Source: Bacteroidota bacterium (GTDB taxonomy: Bacteria > Bacteroidota > Bacteroidia > B-17B0 > Aurantibacillaceae). Taken from it: a DNA stretch of 64,000 nt. Below, in pieces: positions 44,668-63,758 of this stretch; within the stretch, counting starts at the first letter, position 1, and each line of letters begins with the position of its first letter. The stretch spans positions 1 through 64,000 of the forward strand of contig JAAFIQ010000009.1 of assembly GCA_013298715.1 (NCBI GenBank). Reading direction: 5' to 3'. The notes beneath the pieces were generated by a model that was not told the origin of the DNA, did not search any database, and saw only the letters and a program-made list of their open reading frames with translations. The position numbers and the translations under genes were made by a program.

Positions 44668-44749
44668 GCAGGTGTGGCGTAATTGGCAGCCGCGCCAGAC
44701 TTAGGATCTGGTGCCGAAAGGCGTGGGGGTTCGAGTCCCTTCACCTGTA
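44668..44749 (+). tRNA. tRNA-Leu (anticodon TAG)
   Basis: It is 82 nt long. The acceptor stem has six Watson-Crick pairs plus a G-T at 1-72. The anticodon stem CCAGA/TCTGG closes loop CTTAGGA with anticodon TAG. A long variable arm (TGCCGAAAGGCG) marks a class II tRNA. It reads CUA codons. CCA is not encoded. The serine recombinase gene lies just beyond its terminator. Confidence 0.93.
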
Positions 44750-44754
44750 CTAAA

Positions 44755-44794
44755 CCGGACTTTTCTAATAAATTTAGAGAGTCCGGCTTTTTTA
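44755..44794 (+). terminator. Terminator after tRNA-Leu
   Basis: CCGGACT pairs with AGTCCGG, followed by C and a run of seven T. Confidence 0.8.
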
Positions 44795-44838
44795 TTTCTC
44801 CCAAAACCTTTGATGTGTGGGCAACACAGCCAATCACA

Positions 44839-46314
44839 TCATTTACAATCGGGGGTTCGATAATGCTCTATTTTTGAATCATAGACCAAACCTTTAGGAA
44901 ACACCGTATTTTGAAAAATTTGTTTTTGGTAATAATCGCCCAAAGCCCAAACAGGTGCGAGATTGGCGGATAGCTTGCAGGTAAATTGGATCAATTCTTT
45001 AGGGTTCGATAATTTTTGGTTTAGCTTTTCAAGGTCACCCAAAAGCTTCTCTTTTCGAACCTTCATTTCAGTCGAAAATTCTTCGTAAATATCCAAACTT
45101 ACCGACCCAATTGCGTGTCTTTTGCGAAGATTATAAAACTCTTCCTCAACCTCGTTAAGTTTCAACGAAAGGGCTTTTTTCTCCCCTGTGTTGGTTTCTG
45201 TTAGGTTTTCCCAAGTATAGCGCAGTTGGATGGATAAAGGCTCAATTTGGTCGGAATCTACCGAATAAGTCGCCAATAGTTCTTTGAACTTATCGTGCAT
45301 AATATTGGTGCTGCGGTTTATCCTAATTCCGATTTTATTTACCTTGTAATAATACAGCCCTTTCTTTTTTACCAAGTAGCCTGTAAATGGCGCACCGCTT
45401 TCAGCATCTTTTACAAATACCTTTAATGGCAGATTATCATTGGCTTTGTTGGTTGTATAGCCCTCCGTTTTCTTTATTTCATTTGCTCGTAAAAATAAAT
45501 CCTCATCTATTAAAGCCGGATGCCTTCCTTTTATTACTTCACCGTTCAATAAATTGTGCGACATAAATCCGCAATAAAATGGATTTTTGAAAATCCCACC
45601 AAGCGTTTGTTTTGGTACGTTTAAACCCAAGTGTTTTAATTTTTCAATAATCTGTTCGTAGGTCATTGCATTGGCTCTCCAAATAAACGCTTGTTTAATT
45701 AGCTCTCCTTTTTCATTGATAACAATGGTTTGCGATTCCATTCCTTTTACAAATGAATATCCAGTTGGTGCATTTCCAATCCAATCGCCTCGCAGTAATT
45801 TCTCACGCATTCCGTCAATTGTTTTTTGCCTTCGTAAATCGTTATCGTATTTACCAAAAATGAATTGAATGTTTTGTTGCAATACTCCTGCATGGGAGTT
45901 GGTATCAATAGGCTGAGTAACAGCTATAATATTTACTCCGGTCTTTTTTAATTCTCCTGCTATATAAATAGCACTATCTCCGGTTCTGCTAAAACGGTCA
46001 AGACTATAAACTAAAATGAATGAAACTTTTTCTTTACTCGCTTTTACAAATTTGAGCATCCGGCTAAACTCTTTCCGTTCATCGCTTTTTGCACTTTCGT
46101 AAGTTCCACCAAAAAAACCTTTAACATCCAATTTGTTTTTAACAGCGTATTCTACACAATATTTTTTCTGCCATTCCAAACTTTGATTGGTATCCATTTG
46201 TTCTTTAGAACTTACCCTTGTATAGATCACACAATTTTGTATGCCTAAATCTTTTACTTCGTTGTTTTTGCCTTTGGCAAATTGTTTAAGCAACATCTCG
46301 TTTTCCTTCTTCAT
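44839..46314 (-). CDS. Large serine recombinase (site-specific integrase)
   Basis: Read from the ATG at 46314 it has 491 residues. This start has an ideal Shine-Dalgarno (AAGGAGG, 8 nt upstream). A GTG at 46323 would overlap that site. The resolvase domain starts NCVIYTRVSSKEQ, with the catalytic serine in RVS, and has the SLDRFSR motif. The recombinase domain (about 190-290) has PTGYSFVKG and FKNPFYCGFM motifs. A coiled-coil follows near 380-450. It has no second Cys pair of a zinc ribbon that I can see. It would integrate or excise the island. It is last in an operon with the 76-residue protein and the MerR-like protein. Confidence 0.93.
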   Translation of the reverse strand: MKKENEMLLKQFAKGKNNEVKDLGIQNCVIYTRVSSKEQMDTNQSLEWQKKYCVEYAVKNKLDVKGFFGGTYESAKSDERKEFSRMLKFVKASKEKVSFILVYSLDRFSRTGDSAIYIAGELKKTGVNIIAVTQPIDTNSHAGVLQQNIQFIFGKYDNDLRRQKTIDGMREKLLRGDWIGNAPTGYSFVKGMESQTIVINEKGELIKQAFIWRANAMTYEQIIEKLKHLGLNVPKQTLGGIFKNPFYCGFMSHNLLNGEVIKGRHPALIDEDLFLRANEIKKTEGYTTNKANDNLPLKVFVKDAESGAPFTGYLVKKKGLYYYKVNKIGIRINRSTNIMHDKFKELLATYSVDSDQIEPLSIQLRYTWENLTETNTGEKKALSLKLNEVEEEFYNLRKRHAIGSVSLDIYEEFSTEMKVRKEKLLGDLEKLNQKLSNPKELIQFTCKLSANLAPVWALGDYYQKQIFQNTVFPKGLVYDSKIEHYRTPDCK

Positions 46315-46516
46315 ATATTTCACCTCCTTGTATTTGTTTTATTTTTTGTTGTTGTTGCTTCTGCTTCATGTAAAGTTCATAAAACAGAATAGACAATTTT
46401 TCTAACGATTTAATTGTTTCTTCAGCGTGTTCGTCTGAATAGTTTTCAAAACCCTTGCAATTTTTTAATTCGGCAATGGTCAATCGCTTGTGTACTTTCT
46501 CCTTCTTCTCAGCCAT
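46286..46516 (-). CDS. Small coiled-coil protein of the recombinase operon
   Basis: The protein has 76 residues. It is Lys/Glu/Gln rich with a predicted helix (about 25-60) that would form a coiled coil. Its ATG is preceded by AAGGAGG (46527-46521) with a short 4-nt gap. It overlaps the recombinase start by 29 bp and begins 15 bp after the MerR-like gene, so the three genes are one operon. I do not recognise it. It may be an accessory factor or directionality partner of the recombinase. Confidence 0.7.
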   Translation of the reverse strand: MAEKKEKVHKRLTIAELKNCKGFENYSDEHAEETIKSLEKLSILFYELYMKQKQQQQKIKQIQGGEIYEEGKRDVA

Positions 46517-46531
46517 TGTGCCTCCTTACTC

Positions 46532-47512
46532 CTAAACAGTTATTACTTTAAATTTCCTTTTGCTTCTTGGATCATCATTTTCTACCAAAATTTTCTTCTC
46601 AACAAGTTTCTTAGGTTCGTCTTCCTTATCAGTTATTCGGAACTCATTATTTTTTTTGTCAATCAAAATAAACTCTCGGTATTCTTTTTCGCGAAGTATT
46701 CGTATGATGTCTTCTTGTGATGTTTTGCTTTTTGTTATTTCAAGTGGTTCTTGTTTTTTAGATTTGAAAAGGACAAATACTTTTTTATAATCACCTTCTT
46801 TAATATAATACAACAGCTTTCTTTCCTTTACAGTAAATAAGTGCAAACCATTTAAGTATTCAATTAAATAGTCTTCAATAATAAATTTGAAAATTAAATC
46901 GGTGATGTTTACTCTTACTTGAGAATGAAATTCTTTTTTATAAAGTAACTCTTTGGGATAATGATGTTCGTTCTCTTTAATAAAAGGAAACCACTCGCCA
47001 TCATTAAATACAATAAGCGAAACCGATTTTCGTGTTGCGATTGCTTCTGTGATTAAAATTTGTAGGTAATTAAAATTGAAAGGAAGTGAATCGTAATCCG
47101 CAGTTTTGTATTCTCCCGATTTAAAGAAGTTCATAAACTCTTCTTTTTCTTCGCCTTCGTAGTTTTTTAATACATCCATGTGGTTAACAAAATTCTCGAA
47201 CAACTCCTTCAAAGGCAATGGTTCGTAAATATCATCGGCTATCTTTTTTATAACCGGAAGTTGAATACCAAAGGATCGCAATTCATTAACTACTTTAATC
47301 CAAATAAAATCTACAAAACTAAATTTGCGATTACTTTCTTTTTTTTCTCGTGAAAAACGGATGATCCCCTTTTCATCCCAATGATTAAGCACACGGTAGT
47401 TTACTCCGGTATCTTTTGCGCTTAATTTTTCTTCGCACAGCAATTCATATAACTCTGCGAGTTTATCCAAGCTTTTGGTGTCTATAAACTCTTCTAATTT
47501 TACCGAAATCAT
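46532..47512 (-). CDS. MerR-like HTH protein of the recombinase operon
   Basis: Read from ATG 47512 (MISVKLEEFID) it has 326 residues. The longer frame to 47554 lacks a Shine-Dalgarno and overlaps the promoter. Residues about 30-95 form a MerR-type winged helix (VNYRVLNHWDEKGIIRFSREKK, followed by FSFVDFIWIKVVNELRSFGIQL). The C-terminal part (about 100-326) is unknown. The ATG has AAGGAGG 4 nt upstream. It probably controls the recombinase operon and perhaps the divergent gene at 47904. Confidence 0.78.
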   Translation of the reverse strand: MISVKLEEFIDTKSLDKLAELYELLCEEKLSAKDTGVNYRVLNHWDEKGIIRFSREKKESNRKFSFVDFIWIKVVNELRSFGIQLPVIKKIADDIYEPLPLKELFENFVNHMDVLKNYEGEEKEEFMNFFKSGEYKTADYDSLPFNFNYLQILITEAIATRKSVSLIVFNDGEWFPFIKENEHHYPKELLYKKEFHSQVRVNITDLIFKFIIEDYLIEYLNGLHLFTVKERKLLYYIKEGDYKKVFVLFKSKKQEPLEITKSKTSQEDIIRILREKEYREFILIDKKNNEFRITDKEDEPKKLVEKKILVENDDPRSKRKFKVITV

Positions 47513-47551
47513 GCTTCCTCCTTTTATTTTAGTGTTTTGTTTTATTATACA

Positions 47552-47583
47552 CAAATGTAAGACAATTAAAACGATGATTCAAA
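47552..47583 (-). promoter_or_regulatory. Promoter of the recombinase operon
   Basis: On the minus strand TTTG (47583-47580), 20 bp, TACATTTG (47559-47552). The start would be near 47545, giving a leader of about 33 nt with a Shine-Dalgarno. Confidence 0.65.
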
Positions 47584-47721
47584 GCAAAAGTTTCAATATT
47601 TTTATCCAAATGGGCAAATAATTGCTAAAAATCAGTAAATCACGGAGTTAAATATTTATATTGATAATCAAGTATATAAGTCAACAATAATCAAAAATTG
47701 ATGCCGGAACGACCAAAACTA

Positions 47722-47752
47722 TTGTGGGATTAATTGGGGATGATTACATTTG
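47722..47752 (+). promoter_or_regulatory. Promoter of the winged-helix gene
   Basis: TTG (47722-47724), 20 bp, TACATTTG (47745-47752). The -7 box is identical to that of the divergent recombinase operon. The start would be near 47759, so the 11-bp repeat array lies in the leader. The 391-bp gap 47513-47903 thus holds two divergent promoters and the array. Confidence 0.65.
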
Positions 47753-47755
47753 CCG

Positions 47756-47839
47756 TAAGAACTCTATAATACGACATTAAGAACATTATAAGAGAAGTGT
47801 TAGAACAATGTAGTGTAACATTAAGAACTCCGTAAGAAA
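47756..47839 (+). repeat. Helically phased array, TAAGAAC-type motif every 11 bp
   Basis: TAAGAAC occurs at 47756, 47778 and 47822, and TTAGAAC at 47800, exactly 22 bp apart. Midway between them lie weaker copies: TAATACG (47767), TAAGAGA (47789), TAGTGTA (47811) and TAAGAAA (47833). So eight motifs lie 11 bp apart, one per helical turn. This looks like a cooperative protein-binding site. It lies 65 bp before the gene at 47904. Confidence 0.75.
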
Positions 47840-47903
47840 CCTATTGCGGAGCAATTGAAAGCACATTGGTTTTAGCTCAAAACAACAATAAACTGGTAGT
47901 AAA

Positions 47904-48419
47904 ATGAAAGATTTAGTAATGAAATACCTCGAAAGATTCGTTTTGGATTCACAATCCAAGAGTGAATTGATAAATAAGATAATGGAATTACAGGAACGTG
48001 ATAAAGAATGGTTTGATAAATACTCTAACCTCTACAAATCCAAGAAAGAAAGCGAGAAGCGATTAGAAGAACGTATCAAAGAATATGCGGATCGAATGGA
48101 AGAGGTGTTTAAAATGCACGCACAGGGGCAAGTAATAACTGAAGAATACAAACGTTTGGTTGATTTAAAACTGGGTAACACCTATAACATAAATGCTACA
48201 TGGATTGATAAGATTGTTTTTGTTTTAAAAGCTGCCGGAAGACCGATGCGATCTGCTGAAATTATACAAGTGCTTTTAAAGAACGATATGACCTTTCGCA
48301 CTCTCACCGATCATCAAAAAGGGTTATCGGCTCATTTAACAAAGGCATTAAAATACGGTCGAATTATCGGCACAAAACAAAAAGGTCAGAATGGATATGT
48401 GTTTTCTTTGCCGGAATAA
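47904..48419 (+). CDS. Coiled-coil / winged-helix protein of the island
   Basis: The protein has 171 residues. The N-terminal half is Lys/Glu-rich and predicted to be coiled coil (about 25-85). The C-terminal half (about 95-171) resembles a HARE-HTH/winged-helix fold: WIDKIVFVLKAAGRPMRSAEI, then LTKALKYGRIIGTKQKGQNGYVF. A DNA-binding or regulatory role is likely but not proven. It lies alone between the recombinase operon and the secreted SH3 gene, and has its own promoter. Confidence 0.68.
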   Translation: MKDLVMKYLERFVLDSQSKSELINKIMELQERDKEWFDKYSNLYKSKKESEKRLEERIKEYADRMEEVFKMHAQGQVITEEYKRLVDLKLGNTYNINATWIDKIVFVLKAAGRPMRSAEIIQVLLKNDMTFRTLTDHQKGLSAHLTKALKYGRIIGTKQKGQNGYVFSLPE

Positions 48420-48481
48420 ACATTAAACACACATTTTAATATATTGATGATCAATACGTTGTAATTATTTTTAGCATTTAT

Positions 48482-48514
48482 GGTTACCTTTTTATTGTTG
48501 GATTATCAATTGAT
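48482..48514 (+). promoter_or_regulatory. Bipartite promoter-like element P1
   Basis: GGTTACC (48482-48488), 16 bp, ATCAATTGAT (48505-48514), then GAAACCAAT and the start codon of the next gene 21 bp after the second box. The same two boxes at the same spacing occur on the minus strand at 63635-63603, before the gene at 63579. General similarity extends upstream for tens of base pairs. The 16-bp spacing fits an ECF sigma promoter (-35/-10). It has no TAnnTTTG box. Confidence 0.65.
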
Positions 48515-48535
48515 GAAACCAATAAAAAAGAAATC

Positions 48536-50895: not shown

Positions 50896-53851
50896 AAAGA
50901 CCAGGAAAATATTATTAAATGGATTTTTGCTATTGGTTGCAAATTTTTGTTACGCACAAAATTGGAATGATTCCGAAAATTTATTTTTGAATTATTTAGG
51001 TACAAATATGATTCCTGAAGCCAAAATTCTGAGCAAGAAATTAATAACTGATGCAGAAAAACATTACGGAGATACCTCAATTCAGTACTCAAAATCAATA
51101 TACTACGAAGGTTTAATTGATTTAGTAGAAGGGGATTACAAGCCAGCAATTAGTCACTTTGGTATAGCAAAGAAATATTATGCAAAAGAAAGCCAAAAAA
51201 AATGTGGTTTCTATCACCTAATTTTAGACAAACTTGCATTTTGTTTTTTTTATAATTACGACTATGAGAATGCTTATAAAATCTCCTTTGAATTAATCGA
51301 ACTCGAGAACAAGTGCAGGGAATTAGGTAATTATGAATATAAATTAGCCGTTGATGTCTATGCTCAAATATGTCTAAATATTCCATCTGAAGAGGAGAAA
51401 GGAGTCAAACTTATGTTTAATTCAATTGGCATTAATAATAATGTTATAGAAAAAATAAAAGACGACAAGCAATACGAAAAGCTTAAATTCCAACTTATTG
51501 GTGAGAACATAAATTACATTAGCCTAATTCAAAATTATTATTTATTAAACAACAATTTAAGTAACGCCTTGCTCGCTAATGATTTGTTGAATCAATATTT
51601 TAGTTTAAATCTTCCAGATAAATTAATATACGAATTATTAGAGCCATACAAAAGATTCCAAGATGATGAAACTAAAAGAAAACTGATAGACAATCAGATT
51701 TATCTGATAAAAAACAAAAATATTTTTGCAGACTATTCTGTTGATTATTATTACAATTTAGCCTTTTTAAACCGCCAAATAAATAATTTTTCCGAATCTG
51801 CAATAAATTATGAAAACGCACTCGCTGCGCTAAAAAAAGAACCGAAATCTGAAATTTATCAATCAGGAAAACTACTTCATTATTTAGCAGATGCTTATAT
51901 GGGAATGGAAAATTATAAAATAGCATTAGAAGCAATTAATAAAGAAGTAGATATTTTAAAAAAGGAAAAAAGTTTTGACAAAAAAAATCAAATTAACACA
52001 GATATATTTTTGGCTGAATGCAATTTTAGAAGCAAAAACTATAAGGATGCTGAAATAATATCAGACCGACTTATTGCAGAACTCAGTGGAAAAGAAGAGT
52101 CATCGAATTATATATTAAGTGTCAATATAAAACTGATGACACTCGAAAAATTAAGTAGGTGGGAACAATGCATTCCGTACATAAACATTTCTTATAAGAA
52201 TTATTTAAGTGCGCTAATACAAATTTTTAGTATCGGAAGTGGTCGAGAGAAAAAAAACGAGAGTGCCATTTACATTTTAAAATTAGAAGACAACTACGAA
52301 GTAATATGCAATACACATACATCTAATCCAACAACCACAGAATTAGCATATAATACTTCCTTATTAACCAAAGCAATACTTCTTGAATCGGACATTAAAG
52401 TTCAAAATCTAATAAAATCACTAGGTGATTCGAGTATAACGATTCCTTATAATTATCTTAGGTCAATCAAATCAATAGTCGCGAAGCTGTCTTCAGAAGG
52501 AGGGCAACAAAAAGATTACATAAAAAAACTAGAACACCGAGCCGACTCATTAGACCAACTACTATCCCGAAAAATTTCTGCTTACACTGCTTACAAAAAG
52601 AATTTTTCGTTAACATGGAAAGATGTTCAATCAAATCTGAGTAACAGTGAAGCTTCAATAGAGTTCGCAAGATATTATGATGATAAGGATAGTGCTTTTA
52701 ATTATATGGCACTAATTGTAAAATCCGGAGATAAATATCCTGCTTTAGTAAAAATTTGTAGTGAAGACAAATTGAAAAAATTATCGCCCGAAAAAGAATT
52801 AGGTGAAATTTATTCATTGATATGGAAACCAATTACTAATGAATTAATTGGCATTAATACAATTTATTATACGCCAGCGGGTTTAATGAATAACATACCC
52901 TTTCAAGCACTTTATGGAGATAAAGCCGAAGGAAGAGAATACCTTTTAGATAAGTATTCCTTAAATCAATTAACATCAACACGTTACCTTGCATTGGGGT
53001 TAAAAAAGAAAAGTCAAGAGCCAATTGAAACTAATATTGCTTTGTTTGGAGGCGTGAATTACAATGACTTTCCGGAAACAAAATCGGATACTTCAAATTA
53101 CGTAGCCTCGGAAGCCGCATTTTTATACAAGAACTTGATTGCAAGCAGAAATTTGGACGATACCCGTTCAGGAGCATCTTATTTACCGGGTACAAAAAAA
53201 GAGGTAGAAAATATTGCAGATTTATTAAAGTCAAATAAATGGGAAGTAACAACAACGGAAGGTAAAAACGCCTCTGAAAATAAATTTAAAGCGTTTTCAG
53301 GAATAAACAGTAAAAGTATATTGCACATTGCTACACACGGTTTTGCTTTTCCAGATAAAGAAGAAAGAAAAAGGAAAGAATTATTCGGAATAGAAAATGG
53401 AAATGAGAAGTATAAAGTTTCAGACAATCCGATGATTCGCTGTGGTCTTTTATTTAGCGGTGCTAATATGACTTGGCAGGGAAAAGGAGATTCTCTTCTT
53501 AAAACTACCAATGAAGATGCGGTTTTAACTGCATATGAACTATCGCAATTAGATCTCAGTAATACTAAGCTCGTAGTTCTTTCGGCTTGTGAAACTGGCA
53601 AGGGGGCAATACAAGGCTCGGAAGGAACGTTCGGCTTGAAACGTGCCTTAAAACTGGCAGGAGTGGATAATATGATTGTAAGTCTTTGGAAAGTGCCTGA
53701 CGATGCAACAATGGAAATGATGACACTTTTTTATAAAGAACTTGCAAAAACAAAACTGCCGGTTTCTGCATTTGAAACGGCACAAAAAGCAATGCGAAAC
53801 AAATATTCGTCCGAACCCCAAAAATGGGCGGGCTTTGTATTTGTTAGATAG
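50888..53851 (+). CDS. Secreted TPR-CHAT caspase-like protease 1
   Basis: Read from ATG 50888 it has 987 residues. A TTG at 50876 is rejected because the signal peptide starts at this ATG (MSRKTRKILLNGFLLLV, ending CYAQ near residue 24). TPR-like helices fill about 30-490. A coiled-coil linker follows, then the CHAT protease domain (about 580-987). The catalytic pair is His817 (HIATHGF) and Cys901 (LSACETG), 84 residues apart. CHAT proteases are caspase-like and often sense through their TPRs. Export makes this one periplasmic. It overlaps the membrane protein gene by 8 bp. Its last 240 bp are nearly identical to those of the gene at 57726. Confidence 0.9.
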   Translation: MSRKTRKILLNGFLLLVANFCYAQNWNDSENLFLNYLGTNMIPEAKILSKKLITDAEKHYGDTSIQYSKSIYYEGLIDLVEGDYKPAISHFGIAKKYYAKESQKKCGFYHLILDKLAFCFFYNYDYENAYKISFELIELENKCRELGNYEYKLAVDVYAQICLNIPSEEEKGVKLMFNSIGINNNVIEKIKDDKQYEKLKFQLIGENINYISLIQNYYLLNNNLSNALLANDLLNQYFSLNLPDKLIYELLEPYKRFQDDETKRKLIDNQIYLIKNKNIFADYSVDYYYNLAFLNRQINNFSESAINYENALAALKKEPKSEIYQSGKLLHYLADAYMGMENYKIALEAINKEVDILKKEKSFDKKNQINTDIFLAECNFRSKNYKDAEIISDRLIAELSGKEESSNYILSVNIKLMTLEKLSRWEQCIPYINISYKNYLSALIQIFSIGSGREKKNESAIYILKLEDNYEVICNTHTSNPTTTELAYNTSLLTKAILLESDIKVQNLIKSLGDSSITIPYNYLRSIKSIVAKLSSEGGQQKDYIKKLEHRADSLDQLLSRKISAYTAYKKNFSLTWKDVQSNLSNSEASIEFARYYDDKDSAFNYMALIVKSGDKYPALVKICSEDKLKKLSPEKELGEIYSLIWKPITNELIGINTIYYTPAGLMNNIPFQALYGDKAEGREYLLDKYSLNQLTSTRYLALGLKKKSQEPIETNIALFGGVNYNDFPETKSDTSNYVASEAAFLYKNLIASRNLDDTRSGASYLPGTKKEVENIADLLKSNKWEVTTTEGKNASENKFKAFSGINSKSILHIATHGFAFPDKEERKRKELFGIENGNEKYKVSDNPMIRCGLLFSGANMTWQGKGDSLLKTTNEDAVLTAYELSQLDLSNTKLVVLSACETGKGAIQGSEGTFGLKRALKLAGVDNMIVSLWKVPDDATMEMMTLFYKELAKTKLPVSAFETAQKAMRNKYSSEPQKWAGFVFVR

Positions 53852-57725: not shown

Positions 57726-60700
57726 ATGAGTAATAAAAATTCAAATATATTTCATTATGTTTTTATTATACTATTTTGCACCATAATTCCTTGTATTATC
57801 CATGCTCAGTCTTGGAATCAAATGGAAAATGAATACAATAATTTATTAAAAAATAAAGAGAATGATTTAGCTGTAAATAAAGCTAAAGAAATGTACAACT
57901 GGGTTAAAAAAAATGAAAGTGATACTTGTATTCATTTACCGATGAGTTTAAAATATATTGGCAATGCATTCATCAATAATGATTCAGCCATTGCATATTA
58001 TGATATCGCTTTAAATATTTTAAAAAAGCAAAAGCGAGAAAATCACATTCAGTCCTCTAAAATCTACTACAATAAATCAAATAGATATAACTCCCTAAGC
58101 AACAGGGAACTTAGTTTAAGAGAGGCAGAAAGTTCAATTCAAGTTTTAACCTATCTAAATTTTCCGGAGTATCCTTTTTGTACATGGCCTTTAAATTTAA
58201 AAGCACAGATATATTTTTCAGGAGGTGAATTTGAAAAAGCGGAAGTTTTGTATAAACAGATAGTTGAAATTACTTCAAAATATAAGGGGAATTATAGTGC
58301 TGAATATGCAACAGCGATAACTGCATTAGCGAATATGTACTTTAATGAAGATAATTATTCCGCAGCGGATCCGCTATATCAAGAGGCTTCAAAATTATAC
58401 AAAACCATATACGGAGAATCAAATGTAGATTACGCGAAGTCACTTCACAATTTGGGAGCATTATATCATGAGACAAATAATAATACACTTGCAAAAGATC
58501 TATTTATTGAGGCGTTGAAAATCAAGAAAGATCAGCTAGGTTCTAACAATTTAAATTACGCTGTAACATTAATTGGTCTCGGTATTGTTCAATATTCTCT
58601 TGGAGAGAGTAAGGATGCTAAAAAAACTTTTAAAAATGTACTTAACATTTATAGTAAAAATTATGACACACTTAGTATCGAATATTCTTCTGCCCTTAAT
58701 TCAATTGCGATATCCTATTTCGATAATGGTGAGTTTCTAAATGCAGAAGAATTGTATTCGAAATCCAGTGATATAATAATAAAAAAATATGGTTCTAATC
58801 ATCCTGAATATGCAAGGTCACTTGAGAATATAGCTCTAGTTCATTGGAAAGGACTCAATTATACAGAAGCAGAAATAAAATTTAAGGAGGCTTCTAGTAT
58901 TTTTAAAAATTCCTTAGGTAATGAAAACTCGTATTACATTCGCTCATTATTCAGAATTGGTACACTTTATGGCGACATGGGTAAATATTCCCTTGCAGAG
59001 TCAAATATTGAGACGGCAATTTCAATAATGAAAAAAATTAAACAAGAATATTCAAACGACTACGCATCATATATTAATGGACTCGCAAACCTTTATGCTG
59101 AACAATCTCTATATAGTAAAGCGGAATCATTGTACGTTGTAGCAGTAAAAATTCATTTAGAAAAGGATGGAGCAAACTCCCTTAGTTATATTGAGTCTCT
59201 GAATAATTTAGCTTTAATAAAATTAAATAGTGGAAATTATTTAGAAGCGGAGAAATATATTTATGAGGCGTATGGAAAAGCTAAAAAATATTTCCCGAAC
59301 AATCCGAGCATTTTAGCAAGTACAACTCTTAGGATGGCATTTCTAAATGAAGATAAAGGAAATTTTGATTTAGCAGAAAGTTTCTATAAGGAGGGATTAA
59401 AGGTTGAAAAATATTCATTAGGCATTAACAGCCCCAAGTATAATAATACCTTATTGGATCTCGGAGGATTTTATGAAAGTATTGGTCAAGATGAGAAGGC
59501 AGAAAATCTATACTTAGAGGCTTCCCAATCAATAAAAAATAGCTTAGGCATTGTTCATCCAAGATATGCTAGATCACTTTACAACCTCGGAGGATTTTAT
59601 TTAAGCCATGAAAATTACCAAGCATCTGAAAAATATTGTTTAGAAGCGCTGGATATTTATAAACAAACCTATGGGAGGGATAACAAAGATTATTTATTAA
59701 CTCTTTTTAATTTAGGAGGGGTTTACTCAAATTTATCAAATTATTATGCAGCAAAGAATTGTTTTCTTGAAGTATATAATTCTAATTTAAAAAGCATTGA
59801 AAATGACACTGTCTCATATTTAAAAGCTTCGATTCAATTAAGTAAAGCATATTATAATTTGAATGATTTTAAATCAAGTGATAAATATTTAACAGAAGCG
59901 GAAAAGGTTATTAATCCAAGTATTATTAATGATAATCCTGAGATTGCAGGGGAATTGGCTTATTTTCTTTTTACATTAGATAAATATAAGGAGTCCGAAT
60001 CTATATATAAAATCGCAATCACAAGCTATAAGAAAAAAAATGACATAAGAGATAATAAGCTATTGGCAAAATGTCTACATAACTTGAGTTTAGTTTATTT
60101 AAATATGTCGAAATATGATGATGCAGAAACTACCCTCAATCAAGCATTGGCATTGAAGAAAAAATACTATGGCACAAGAAACAATAATTACAATCAATCA
60201 CAATATCTTTTAGCAAGAATAAAATTTCAAAAGGGGGATTACGCTTCATCATATAAAATATTCGAGCAAAATTATTTCCAAAAAAACAAAGAAATCACTG
60301 ATAATTTTAGCTTTTTAAGTGAGAAGGAAAGAGAACTAACCTGGAATGAAAAGGATTATTATTATTCTCAATTAATTGAATATAGTTCAAAAATTTACAA
60401 TGATATTCAATCTAGTTCTGCTTTAGCATATAATAGCTCTTTAATTTCAAAGGCTATTTTGATGGAGACATCTAGAGGTTTTAATGACGCAGTTAATAAT
60501 TCCAAAGACTCAACATTTATTAATTTATACCAAGATTTAAAATCATTACGAAAATATAGTGCAAAATTGTCATCTGAAGGATCTGACAAACAAACTTTGA
60601 CTTCAACTTTAGATCGGCAAGCAGATTCTTTGGATCAAATTCTTTCTAGGAAAATGAGTTTTTACGCAAATTACAAGAAGAATTTTTCTTTAACTTGGAA

Positions 60701-61931
60701 AGATGTGCAGGCGAATTTACTCAATGATGAAGCCTCAATTGAATTTGCACGGTACTATGATGAAAAAGATAGCACCTATCATTATATGGCGTTAATAGTT
60801 AGAGCCAATGATAAATACCCTTTGCTTATAAAGTTATGTAGTGAAGATGAATTAAAACAATTGTCACCGGAGAAAGAATTAAGTGAATTGTATTCTTTGT
60901 TATGGAAACCAATCTCCAGCCAATTAGCCGGTATCAAAACAATTTATTATACGCCCGCTGGTTTAATGAATAATGTATCGTTTCAAGCGCTTTATGAGGA
61001 TAAAACGGAAGGAAGGGAATACCTTATAGATAAATATTCTTTAAATCAATTAACATCCACACGTTATCTTGCACTAGGATTAAAGAAGAGGGCTCAAGAA
61101 CCAATTGAAACTAACATTGCTTTATTTGGAGGGGTGAATTACAATGATTTTCCGGAAACAATATCAGATACTTCAAATTACTTAGCCTCAGAAGCCGCAT
61201 TTTTATATAAGAACTTGATTGCAAGCAGAGATTTGGACGAGACCCGATCAGGCGCATCTTATTTACCGGGTACAAAACAAGAGGTAGAAGGTATTGCAGG
61301 ATTACTAAAATTAAACAATTGGGATGTAATTGTATCAGAAGGGAAAAATGCTTCGGAGGAAAAAATGAAAAGTTTTTGTGGAAAAAGCAGCAAAAGTATA
61401 TTGCATATTGCAACTCATGGATTTGCTTTCTCTGATAAATCAGAAAAACAAAAGAAAGAAACTTTTGAAACACAAAATGGAAATGAGAAATATAAAATTT
61501 CCAACAATCCAATGATCCGTAGCGGTTTATTATTTAGCGGAGCTAACATGACTTGGCAAGGGAAAGGAGATAGTCTTCTAAAAATAACAAATGAAGATGC
61601 GGTTTTAACTGCGTATGAACTATCGCAATTGGATTTTAGTAATACAAAGCTCGTAGTTCTTTCGGCTTGTGAAACTGGCAAGGGGGCAATACAAGGCTCG
61701 GAAGGAACGTTCGGACTGAAACGTGCCTTAAAACTGGCAGGAGTGGATAATATGATTGTAAGTCTTTGGAAAGTGCCTGACGATGCAACAATGGAAATGA
61801 TGACACTTTTTTATAAAGAACTTGCAAAAACAAAACTGCCGGTATCTGCATTTGAAACGGCACAAAAGGCAATGAGAAACAAATATCTAACCGAACCAAA
61901 GAAATGGGCGGGTTTTGTTTTTGTGAGATAA
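57726..61931 (+). CDS. Secreted TPR-CHAT caspase-like protease 2
   Basis: The protein has 1401 residues. A signal peptide ends near residue 34 (IIHAQ). About 17 or more TPRs of about 42 residues (kinesin light chain type, YAKSLHNLGALYHETNN) fill about 60-880. The CHAT domain occupies about 990-1401, with His1231 (HIATHGF) and Cys1315 (LSACETG), again 84 residues apart. It shares most of the CHAT domain with the gene at 50888 but has a much longer sensor part. The two probably answer different signals with the same protease. Its end lies 20 bp from the convergent secreted-protein gene. Confidence 0.9.
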   Translation: MSNKNSNIFHYVFIILFCTIIPCIIHAQSWNQMENEYNNLLKNKENDLAVNKAKEMYNWVKKNESDTCIHLPMSLKYIGNAFINNDSAIAYYDIALNILKKQKRENHIQSSKIYYNKSNRYNSLSNRELSLREAESSIQVLTYLNFPEYPFCTWPLNLKAQIYFSGGEFEKAEVLYKQIVEITSKYKGNYSAEYATAITALANMYFNEDNYSAADPLYQEASKLYKTIYGESNVDYAKSLHNLGALYHETNNNTLAKDLFIEALKIKKDQLGSNNLNYAVTLIGLGIVQYSLGESKDAKKTFKNVLNIYSKNYDTLSIEYSSALNSIAISYFDNGEFLNAEELYSKSSDIIIKKYGSNHPEYARSLENIALVHWKGLNYTEAEIKFKEASSIFKNSLGNENSYYIRSLFRIGTLYGDMGKYSLAESNIETAISIMKKIKQEYSNDYASYINGLANLYAEQSLYSKAESLYVVAVKIHLEKDGANSLSYIESLNNLALIKLNSGNYLEAEKYIYEAYGKAKKYFPNNPSILASTTLRMAFLNEDKGNFDLAESFYKEGLKVEKYSLGINSPKYNNTLLDLGGFYESIGQDEKAENLYLEASQSIKNSLGIVHPRYARSLYNLGGFYLSHENYQASEKYCLEALDIYKQTYGRDNKDYLLTLFNLGGVYSNLSNYYAAKNCFLEVYNSNLKSIENDTVSYLKASIQLSKAYYNLNDFKSSDKYLTEAEKVINPSIINDNPEIAGELAYFLFTLDKYKESESIYKIAITSYKKKNDIRDNKLLAKCLHNLSLVYLNMSKYDDAETTLNQALALKKKYYGTRNNNYNQSQYLLARIKFQKGDYASSYKIFEQNYFQKNKEITDNFSFLSEKERELTWNEKDYYYSQLIEYSSKIYNDIQSSSALAYNSSLISKAILMETSRGFNDAVNNSKDSTFINLYQDLKSLRKYSAKLSSEGSDKQTLTSTLDRQADSLDQILSRKMSFYANYKKNFSLTWKDVQANLLNDEASIEFARYYDEKDSTYHYMALIVRANDKYPLLIKLCSEDELKQLSPEKELSELYSLLWKPISSQLAGIKTIYYTPAGLMNNVSFQALYEDKTEGREYLIDKYSLNQLTSTRYLALGLKKRAQEPIETNIALFGGVNYNDFPETISDTSNYLASEAAFLYKNLIASRDLDETRSGASYLPGTKQEVEGIAGLLKLNNWDVIVSEGKNASEEKMKSFCGKSSKSILHIATHGFAFSDKSEKQKKETFETQNGNEKYKISNNPMIRSGLLFSGANMTWQGKGDSLLKITNEDAVLTAYELSQLDFSNTKLVVLSACETGKGAIQGSEGTFGLKRALKLAGVDNMIVSLWKVPDDATMEMMTLFYKELAKTKLPVSAFETAQKAMRNKYLTEPKKWAGFVFVR
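61647..61886 (+). repeat. Near-identical catalytic segment shared by both TPR-CHAT genes
   Basis: 61647-61843 matches 53567-53763 with two mismatches in 197 bp. Similarity stays very high to about 61886/53806. It covers the catalytic Cys. Flanking CHAT sequence is clearly more diverged, including silent sites. Confidence 0.85.
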
Positions 61932-63579: not shown

Positions 63580-63602
63580 TTTATTTGTTTTTAATTGGTT
63601 TC

Positions 63603-63635
63603 ATCAATTGATAATCAACTCATGATCAGGTAACC
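63603..63635 (-). promoter_or_regulatory. Bipartite promoter-like element P2
   Basis: On the minus strand GGTTACC (63635-63629), 16 bp, ATCAATTGAT (63612-63603), then GAAACCAAT. The start codon is 23 bp further. It matches P1 at 48482-48514 in both boxes and in spacing, and points towards it. Similarity continues upstream for tens of base pairs. Confidence 0.65.
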
Positions 63636-63758
63636 ATAAAAGACAAAATAAAATCATAACACGTTGTTTATCACTTAGATAAAATGCGAAAAAATGACCA
63701 ATTAAAATTTAGGCAATAATAAATGGAGGATTTGTTTTGTAGATAATTTGATGCGTTT

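Follow-up and report, generated by a model that had tools for sequence, protein, structure and literature searches.

The integrase operon and its boxes

Three consecutive genes, here called M, S and R in the order of their reading, lie on the minus strand of the 64,000-nt stretch of Bacteroidota DNA analysed here (the window). The first, M (46532..47512), encodes a MerR-like DNA-binding protein of 326 aa (PF13411 MerR_1, E 4.5e-10), S (46286..46516) is a small accessory open reading frame (ORF) of 76 aa, and R (44839..46314), an ORF of 491 aa as read, encodes a large serine recombinase. The Resolvase catalytic domain is N-terminal in R (PF00239, residues 29-178, E 1.2e-24) and the Recombinase domain comes after it (PF07508, residues 201-282, E 1.6e-10), which is the domain order of large serine recombinases. 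Residues Y31, R33 and S35, invariant in a 22-row alignment (A1), form the motif Y-x-R-x-S, which holds the catalytic serine of these enzymes. R also matches the integrase family phrog_95 (E 8.4e-60).

Each of the three genes is preceded by AAGGAGG, the sequence of a Shine–Dalgarno (SD) box, at the distances of 4, 4 and 8 nt from the ATG that the first-pass annotation had reported; the sequence bears this out. The box of M (47517..47523, minus strand, 4 nt from the ATG at 47512) has a pairing energy of -12.2 kcal/mol and is predicted to be 0.87 unpaired. That of S (46521..46527, minus strand, 4 nt from the ATG at 46516) reaches -11.9 kcal/mol and is predicted to be 0.52 unpaired. The box of R, AAGGAGG(TG) (46323..46329, minus strand, 8 nt from the ATG at 46314), is the strongest of the three at -15.5 kcal/mol and is predicted to be 0.91 unpaired. 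Complementarity to the 16S tail continues into the bases that flank the boxes on both sides (GAAAGGAGG, AAAGGAGGTG). S overlaps the start of R by 29 nt, and both the start codon and the box of R lie within the S coding sequence. M, the first gene, is without an overlapping gene ahead of it and yet has an SD.

The tRNA site and the recombinase tail

The operon ends close to a tRNA-Leu (TAG) gene on the plus strand (44668..44750), the presumed integration site, whose 3' end lies ~91 nt past R residue 491. Between this gene and the R stop is a terminator-like hairpin with a T run (44755..44795, plus strand), recognized by eye, and a counterpart stretch is present in two loci from other genomes of the phylum, L172 and L173. 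The stretch common to the window, L172 and L173 runs from the tRNA to 48412 (44750-48412) at ~89% DNA identity, so the divergent ORF of 171 aa at 47904..48419 (plus strand) belongs to the conserved module. An antisense tRNA gene just past the recombinase is a feature of the family, being found at 65/79 family loci (two more are too short) and at 64/76 loci of the named set (four too short), and it lies 88-92 nt past the counterpart of R residue 491 in nearly all cases. Many tRNA types are used across these loci, tRNA-Leu being that of the window's clade. Judged from the sequence, the operon probably serves as the integration module of a Bacteroidota element that targets tRNA genes by means of a serine integrase. 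No att repeat that would mark the ends of the island was found within the window, and the limits that could be drawn are those of the shared module.

In the relatives (L071-L150, L172-L251), the recombinase frame stays open across the terminator-like hairpin, enters the antisense strand of the tRNA gene and yields tails such as GLEP or GFEP, so the C-terminus would be encoded by the integration site itself. R of the window ends before this tail. At 44851..44855 (minus strand) it has a run of five C where L172 and L173, both 97% identical to it, have four, a +1 shift. This may be a true frameshift in the tail of the window R or an assembly error at 44851-44855; with a frameshifted tail, this copy of R may be inactive.

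Two repeats occur in the window. An inverted repeat of 66 nt, 82% complementary (48469-48534 and 63583-63648), begins just beyond the shared integrase module, and a direct repeat of 300 nt with 72% identity, its copies 8,080 nt apart (52530-52829 and 60610-60909), suggests two related large genes.

SD boxes in the genome and genus

When the 41 called genes of the window are ranked by pairing with a generic 16S tail (GGAUCACC), M, S and R come out strongest and are the only ones to reach -10 kcal/mol. The fourth-best gene has -9.5 and the remaining ones -6.0 or weaker. The pattern AAGGAGG-N3-10-ATG occurs at 39 sites genome-wide, compared with 52 for the reversed pattern, and is thus not enriched; AAAGGAGG-N3-9-ATG, summed over 21 genomes of the genus, occurs 366 times compared with 317 for its reverse. 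Most of the 39 sites are not gene starts. Three belong to the integrase operon and about nine of the other 36 look like true gene starts, namely those of rplI, rplE and rplF (named by reading their protein starts), hpf (PF02482), an antitoxin-like HTH gene and a few unknown genes. The SDs of rplE, rplF and rplI have energies of -12.2 to -13.5 kcal/mol. Within the ribosomal-protein region of this genome, scored with the generic tail, rplE and rplF alone reach -10 kcal/mol among 28 called ORFs, and rpsF, rpsR and rpsU have no SD. The antitoxin-like gene (L019, C12:370783 of the same genome) has its AAGGAGG inside an overlapping upstream ORF, and is another case of a mobile-type module with an SD.

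The genome as a whole does not use SDs; they mark a handful of genes. The observation that the first-pass annotation had named as fatal to its reading, AAGGAGG being equally frequent before ordinary genes, was therefore not made, either in the site counts or in the ranking of the window genes. One qualification applies: the operon is exceptional in the window and in the genome, but a few ordinary genes (rplE, rplF, rplI and hpf) have an SD as well.

The 16S gene is absent from the window's own assembly, and the tail was read from the genus. The sequence CTGGAACACCTCCTTT is present in 12 of the 40 genus genomes searched, with no match in the other 28, and reads on to CT in 8/8 loci. The genus tail, GGAACACCUCCUUUCU / CTGGAACACCTCCTTTCT (also given as GGAACACC), was read in all eight and has an intact CCUCC. 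Energies for the operon, for the sets of 78 family members and 134 loci discussed below, for hpf and HSP20 and for the viral contigs were calculated with this tail, and the generic tail was used for the 41-gene ranking, the 28-ORF region, the comparison of SDs with gene overlaps and the rpsU count.

The hpf gene, which encodes a ribosome hibernation factor and lies downstream of rpsU (G000:C42, loci L171 and L033, and loci L252-L280), keeps its SD in 25/26 usable genus copies (30 given). This lineage thus uses SDs on a ribosome-state gene. No rpsU copy of the genus has one (0/30, best -6.5 kcal/mol with the generic tail). In two related genomes, G296 and G313, 12 real-looking starts were found among 40 SD sites examined, and the SD-led genes encode a peroxiredoxin, TonB, an SPFH protein, a type III polyketide synthase, HSP20 and an unknown protein of 140 aa. 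A general stress regulon, suggested by the SDs of peroxiredoxin, HSP20, TonB and SPFH genes in G296, was considered and dropped because HSP20 has an SD in only 1/24 usable genus copies (25 given). The SD-led 140-aa gene, which has no Pfam match and an MS..ENKQQ-like start, lies upstream of several family recombinases and also elsewhere in G313 (L120:3212-3631, L333:767-1186), the L120 gene being likened to it by its start alone.

SDs among relatives of the recombinase

R finds a match at E 1e-20 in 51/100 related genomes, and 100 stretches around such matches were collected. A start could be used in 78 family members, of which 22 have an R SD of -11 kcal/mol or stronger, versus 2/78 in a mock window 33 nt further upstream. 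A larger set of 161 loci was reduced to 134 distinct ones by removing duplicates, loci with less than 37% identity and loci in which no start was usable; S homologues were called in 110 of these. An SD of -10 kcal/mol or stronger precedes M in 11/35 loci (mock 0), S in 32/110 (mock 5) and R in 28/134 (mock 3). The start codon was taken as the best-pairing in-frame candidate, a choice biased toward SDs, and the mock windows were scored under the same rule. SD-led M genes are always accompanied by an SD-led R (11/11, Fisher P = 8.7e-7) and an SD-led S (11/11, P = 1.5e-4), P-values that treat related loci among the 134 as independent. The three AAGGAGG boxes are very probably real SDs of some kind.

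Most recombinase family members among the 134 loci are without an SD, so the element does not need SDs. A second family member in the same genome (L133), 40% identical to R, has none, and in one clade with an SD-less R (L085-L088) the SD sits on the small gene instead. The suggestion that mobile genes keep host-independent translation signals therefore survives in part. The SD is tied to a mobile operon, but most recombinases of the same family, L133 included, do without it, so the signal has been gained or kept in some lineages and is absent from others. The idea that every serine recombinase in these hosts has an SD was also considered and rejected, as there was no SD-led start among 20 distant members (21-28% identical), most of them with unresolved starts.

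A possible role for ribosomes poor in bS21

In Bacteroidia, bS21, bS18 and bS6 are reported to form a pocket that holds the anti-SD (PMC9976891). Work on rpsU of Flavobacterium johnsoniae in the same source describes ribosomes without bS21 as better at translating strong-SD mRNAs, and reporters with the strong SD of rpsU as rising 3- to 4-fold upon bS21 mutation or depletion. When wild-type F. johnsoniae was given a reporter with a strong SD, protein output was somewhat reduced rather than increased (PMC9976891). Freshwater Bacteroidota phages are reported to encode a bS21 of their own (PMC9723584).

Tyr54, the bS21 residue that sequesters the anti-SD, is found in 30/30 genus copies of bS21 examined, own genome included, which makes occlusion of the anti-SD likely in this genus too, and most ribosomes of the host should then hide it. 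Complementarity, spacing and conservation suggest that the boxes pair with the 16S 3' tail. As Tyr54 would hide the anti-SD in most ribosomes, the boxes should favour those that are poor in bS21, and such ribosomes should preferentially translate M, S and especially R. Assembly stress, ageing and phage takeover are examples of conditions under which ribosomes could become poor in bS21, to judge from the published F. johnsoniae work. Given Tyr54 in 30/30 copies and the published mechanism, the preferred reading is that ribosomes poor in bS21 translate the integrase operon conditionally via functional, element-borne SDs, a reading whose regulatory step is inferred and which we hold with about even confidence. 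Several points count against it. The SD is absent from rpsU (0/30), most family members are SD-less, the S box is predicted to be only about half unpaired, HSP20 did not bear out a general stress regulon (1/24), and the window R has a frameshifted tail. Two of the three boxes, those of M (-12.2) and S (-11.9), are also weaker than the mark of about -13 kcal/mol used for rpsU in PMC9976891, which the R box exceeds at -15.5.

The main rival is that the SDs are used constitutively and do no more than ensure sufficient initiation where a start is buried within overlapping genes of a polycistronic message, with no need for ribosome heterogeneity; this is a serious possibility, although we think it short of probable. 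It draws on the way in which R starts in the relatives. When R has no SD, it often begins 1-4 nt inside the stop of the upstream small gene (16/44), an arrangement that would couple R to that gene, whereas none of the SD-led R genes does so (0/21; Fisher P = 0.0013; generic tail, the counts cover SD-led and SD-less members that have a called small gene, intermediate ones being set aside). The SD and the short overlap are thus mutually exclusive at the R start, and on the preferred reading, too, the SD appears to replace start/stop coupling in starting this internal gene. The R box of the window, lying inside S, fits the same account. M fits it less well, having an SD and no overlapping gene ahead, and the somewhat lower yield from a strong SD in wild-type F. 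johnsoniae (PMC9976891) is not what a constitutive aid to initiation would lead one to expect.

Conditional translation could be carried one step further. The element may read ribosome composition, its integration and excision genes lying behind SDs that only bS21-poor ribosomes use well, so that ribosome damage, hibernation or hijacking would switch on production of the integrase, and the operon together with hpf would then form a small SD regulon outside rpsU. This extension is tentative and on balance doubtful. If it is true, a mobile element uses a specialised ribosome as its trigger. The findings suggest that mobile elements may plug into a pool of bS21-poor ribosomes, and the operon and hpf offer a natural multi-gene test of whether such ribosomes form a specialised pool.

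Origin of the SDs

The first-pass annotation had read the boxes as a sign of transfer from another lineage. An operon acquired recently from an SD-using phylum, its signals not yet lost, would be expected to have its nearest relatives outside Bacteroidota, and this was not seen among the best 80 loci listed for named genomes. By title, 77 of these are Bacteroidota and three (L174, L175 and L199) are called only 'bacterium'; the named relatives include Chitinophaga, Adhaeribacter, Rufibacter, Fulvivirga, Agaribacillus and Flavisolibacter. Copies of 97% identity occur in other metagenome-assembled genomes of the phylum. A search of plasmid and phage records with R gave no match at E 1e-25, and the closest viral contigs are 41-43% identical to R, the two with a callable start (41-42%) being SD-less. 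What speaks for acquisition is that distant recombinases of viral contigs (21-29%) mostly have SD-like boxes and that the third-position GC of R, 0.343, lies near the top of the range of 0.200-0.351 seen in 32 window genes, whose mean is 0.259. The recombinase phylogeny that the annotation had proposed as a check points the other way. When SD presence is mapped onto a tree of 82 recombinases, it changes 8 times (at least 7), compared with a mean of 19.5 after shuffling, and SD clades are nested among SD-less ones. The SD comes and goes inside the Bacteroidota tree, and the claim of transfer finds no support. The relatives and the tree support SDs that arose and are kept inside Bacteroidota; the SD would be native to the lineage of the element and probably no remnant of a foreign donor. 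We regard recent acquisition as improbable.

Still less probable is that AAGGAGG is a DNA site, an operator or an accessory site for the recombinase, that stands before the starts by chance. The presence of three copies within a single operon for DNA-binding proteins would suit such a role, but the spacing is that of an SD at every gene, the boxes are extended along the 16S complement, and rplE, rplF, rplI and hpf are preceded by the same box. Simple chance in an A-rich upstream region, for which one might cite the many genome sites that are not gene starts, is already refuted by three boxes on adjacent genes of one operon, by the excess over the mock window (22/78 versus 2/78) and by the pairing of SD-led M with SD-led R in 11 of 11 loci.

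Comparison with known systems

Large serine recombinases include the integrases of the phiC31/Bxb1 type. R resembles them in its Resolvase and Recombinase domains and in its match to PHROG 95. Its family differs from the phiC31/Bxb1 type in lying next to a tRNA gene at an almost constant distance of 91 nt, in the C-terminus that in the relatives is read antisense through the tRNA, and in the company of a small gene and sometimes of a MerR-like gene.

The SDs of the operon have a counterpart in the ribosomal-protein genes of some Bacteroidia, where SDs are reported on rplE, rplF, rplI and others (PMC9976891). The window's genome has them on the same three genes. The integrase operon is unlike these in being non-ribosomal and in the greater strength of the R SD (-15.5 kcal/mol compared with -12.2 to -13.5).

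Another close parallel is the autoregulation of rpsU by bS21 in F. johnsoniae, as described in PMC9976891. Both cases have a strong SD, although the phylum makes no general use of this signal, and a bS21 with Tyr54; the CCUCC tail of F. johnsoniae has its match in the intact CCUCC of the eight genus loci read here. They differ in the genes concerned, which here are a mobile-element operon and hpf, and in the kind of evidence, which here comes from sequence. Autoregulation of rpsU through an SD was rejected for this genus, none of its 30 rpsU copies having one. In searches of the open-licence literature, the titles and opening lines of abstracts listed contained no report of SD-led integrase operons or of an SD-led hpf in Bacteroidota. 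The view published for Flavobacteriales is that SD-dependent control is confined to rpsU (PMC9976891). Set against it is another Bacteroidota lineage in which a whole mobile-element operon and hpf have strong, conserved SDs and rpsU has none.
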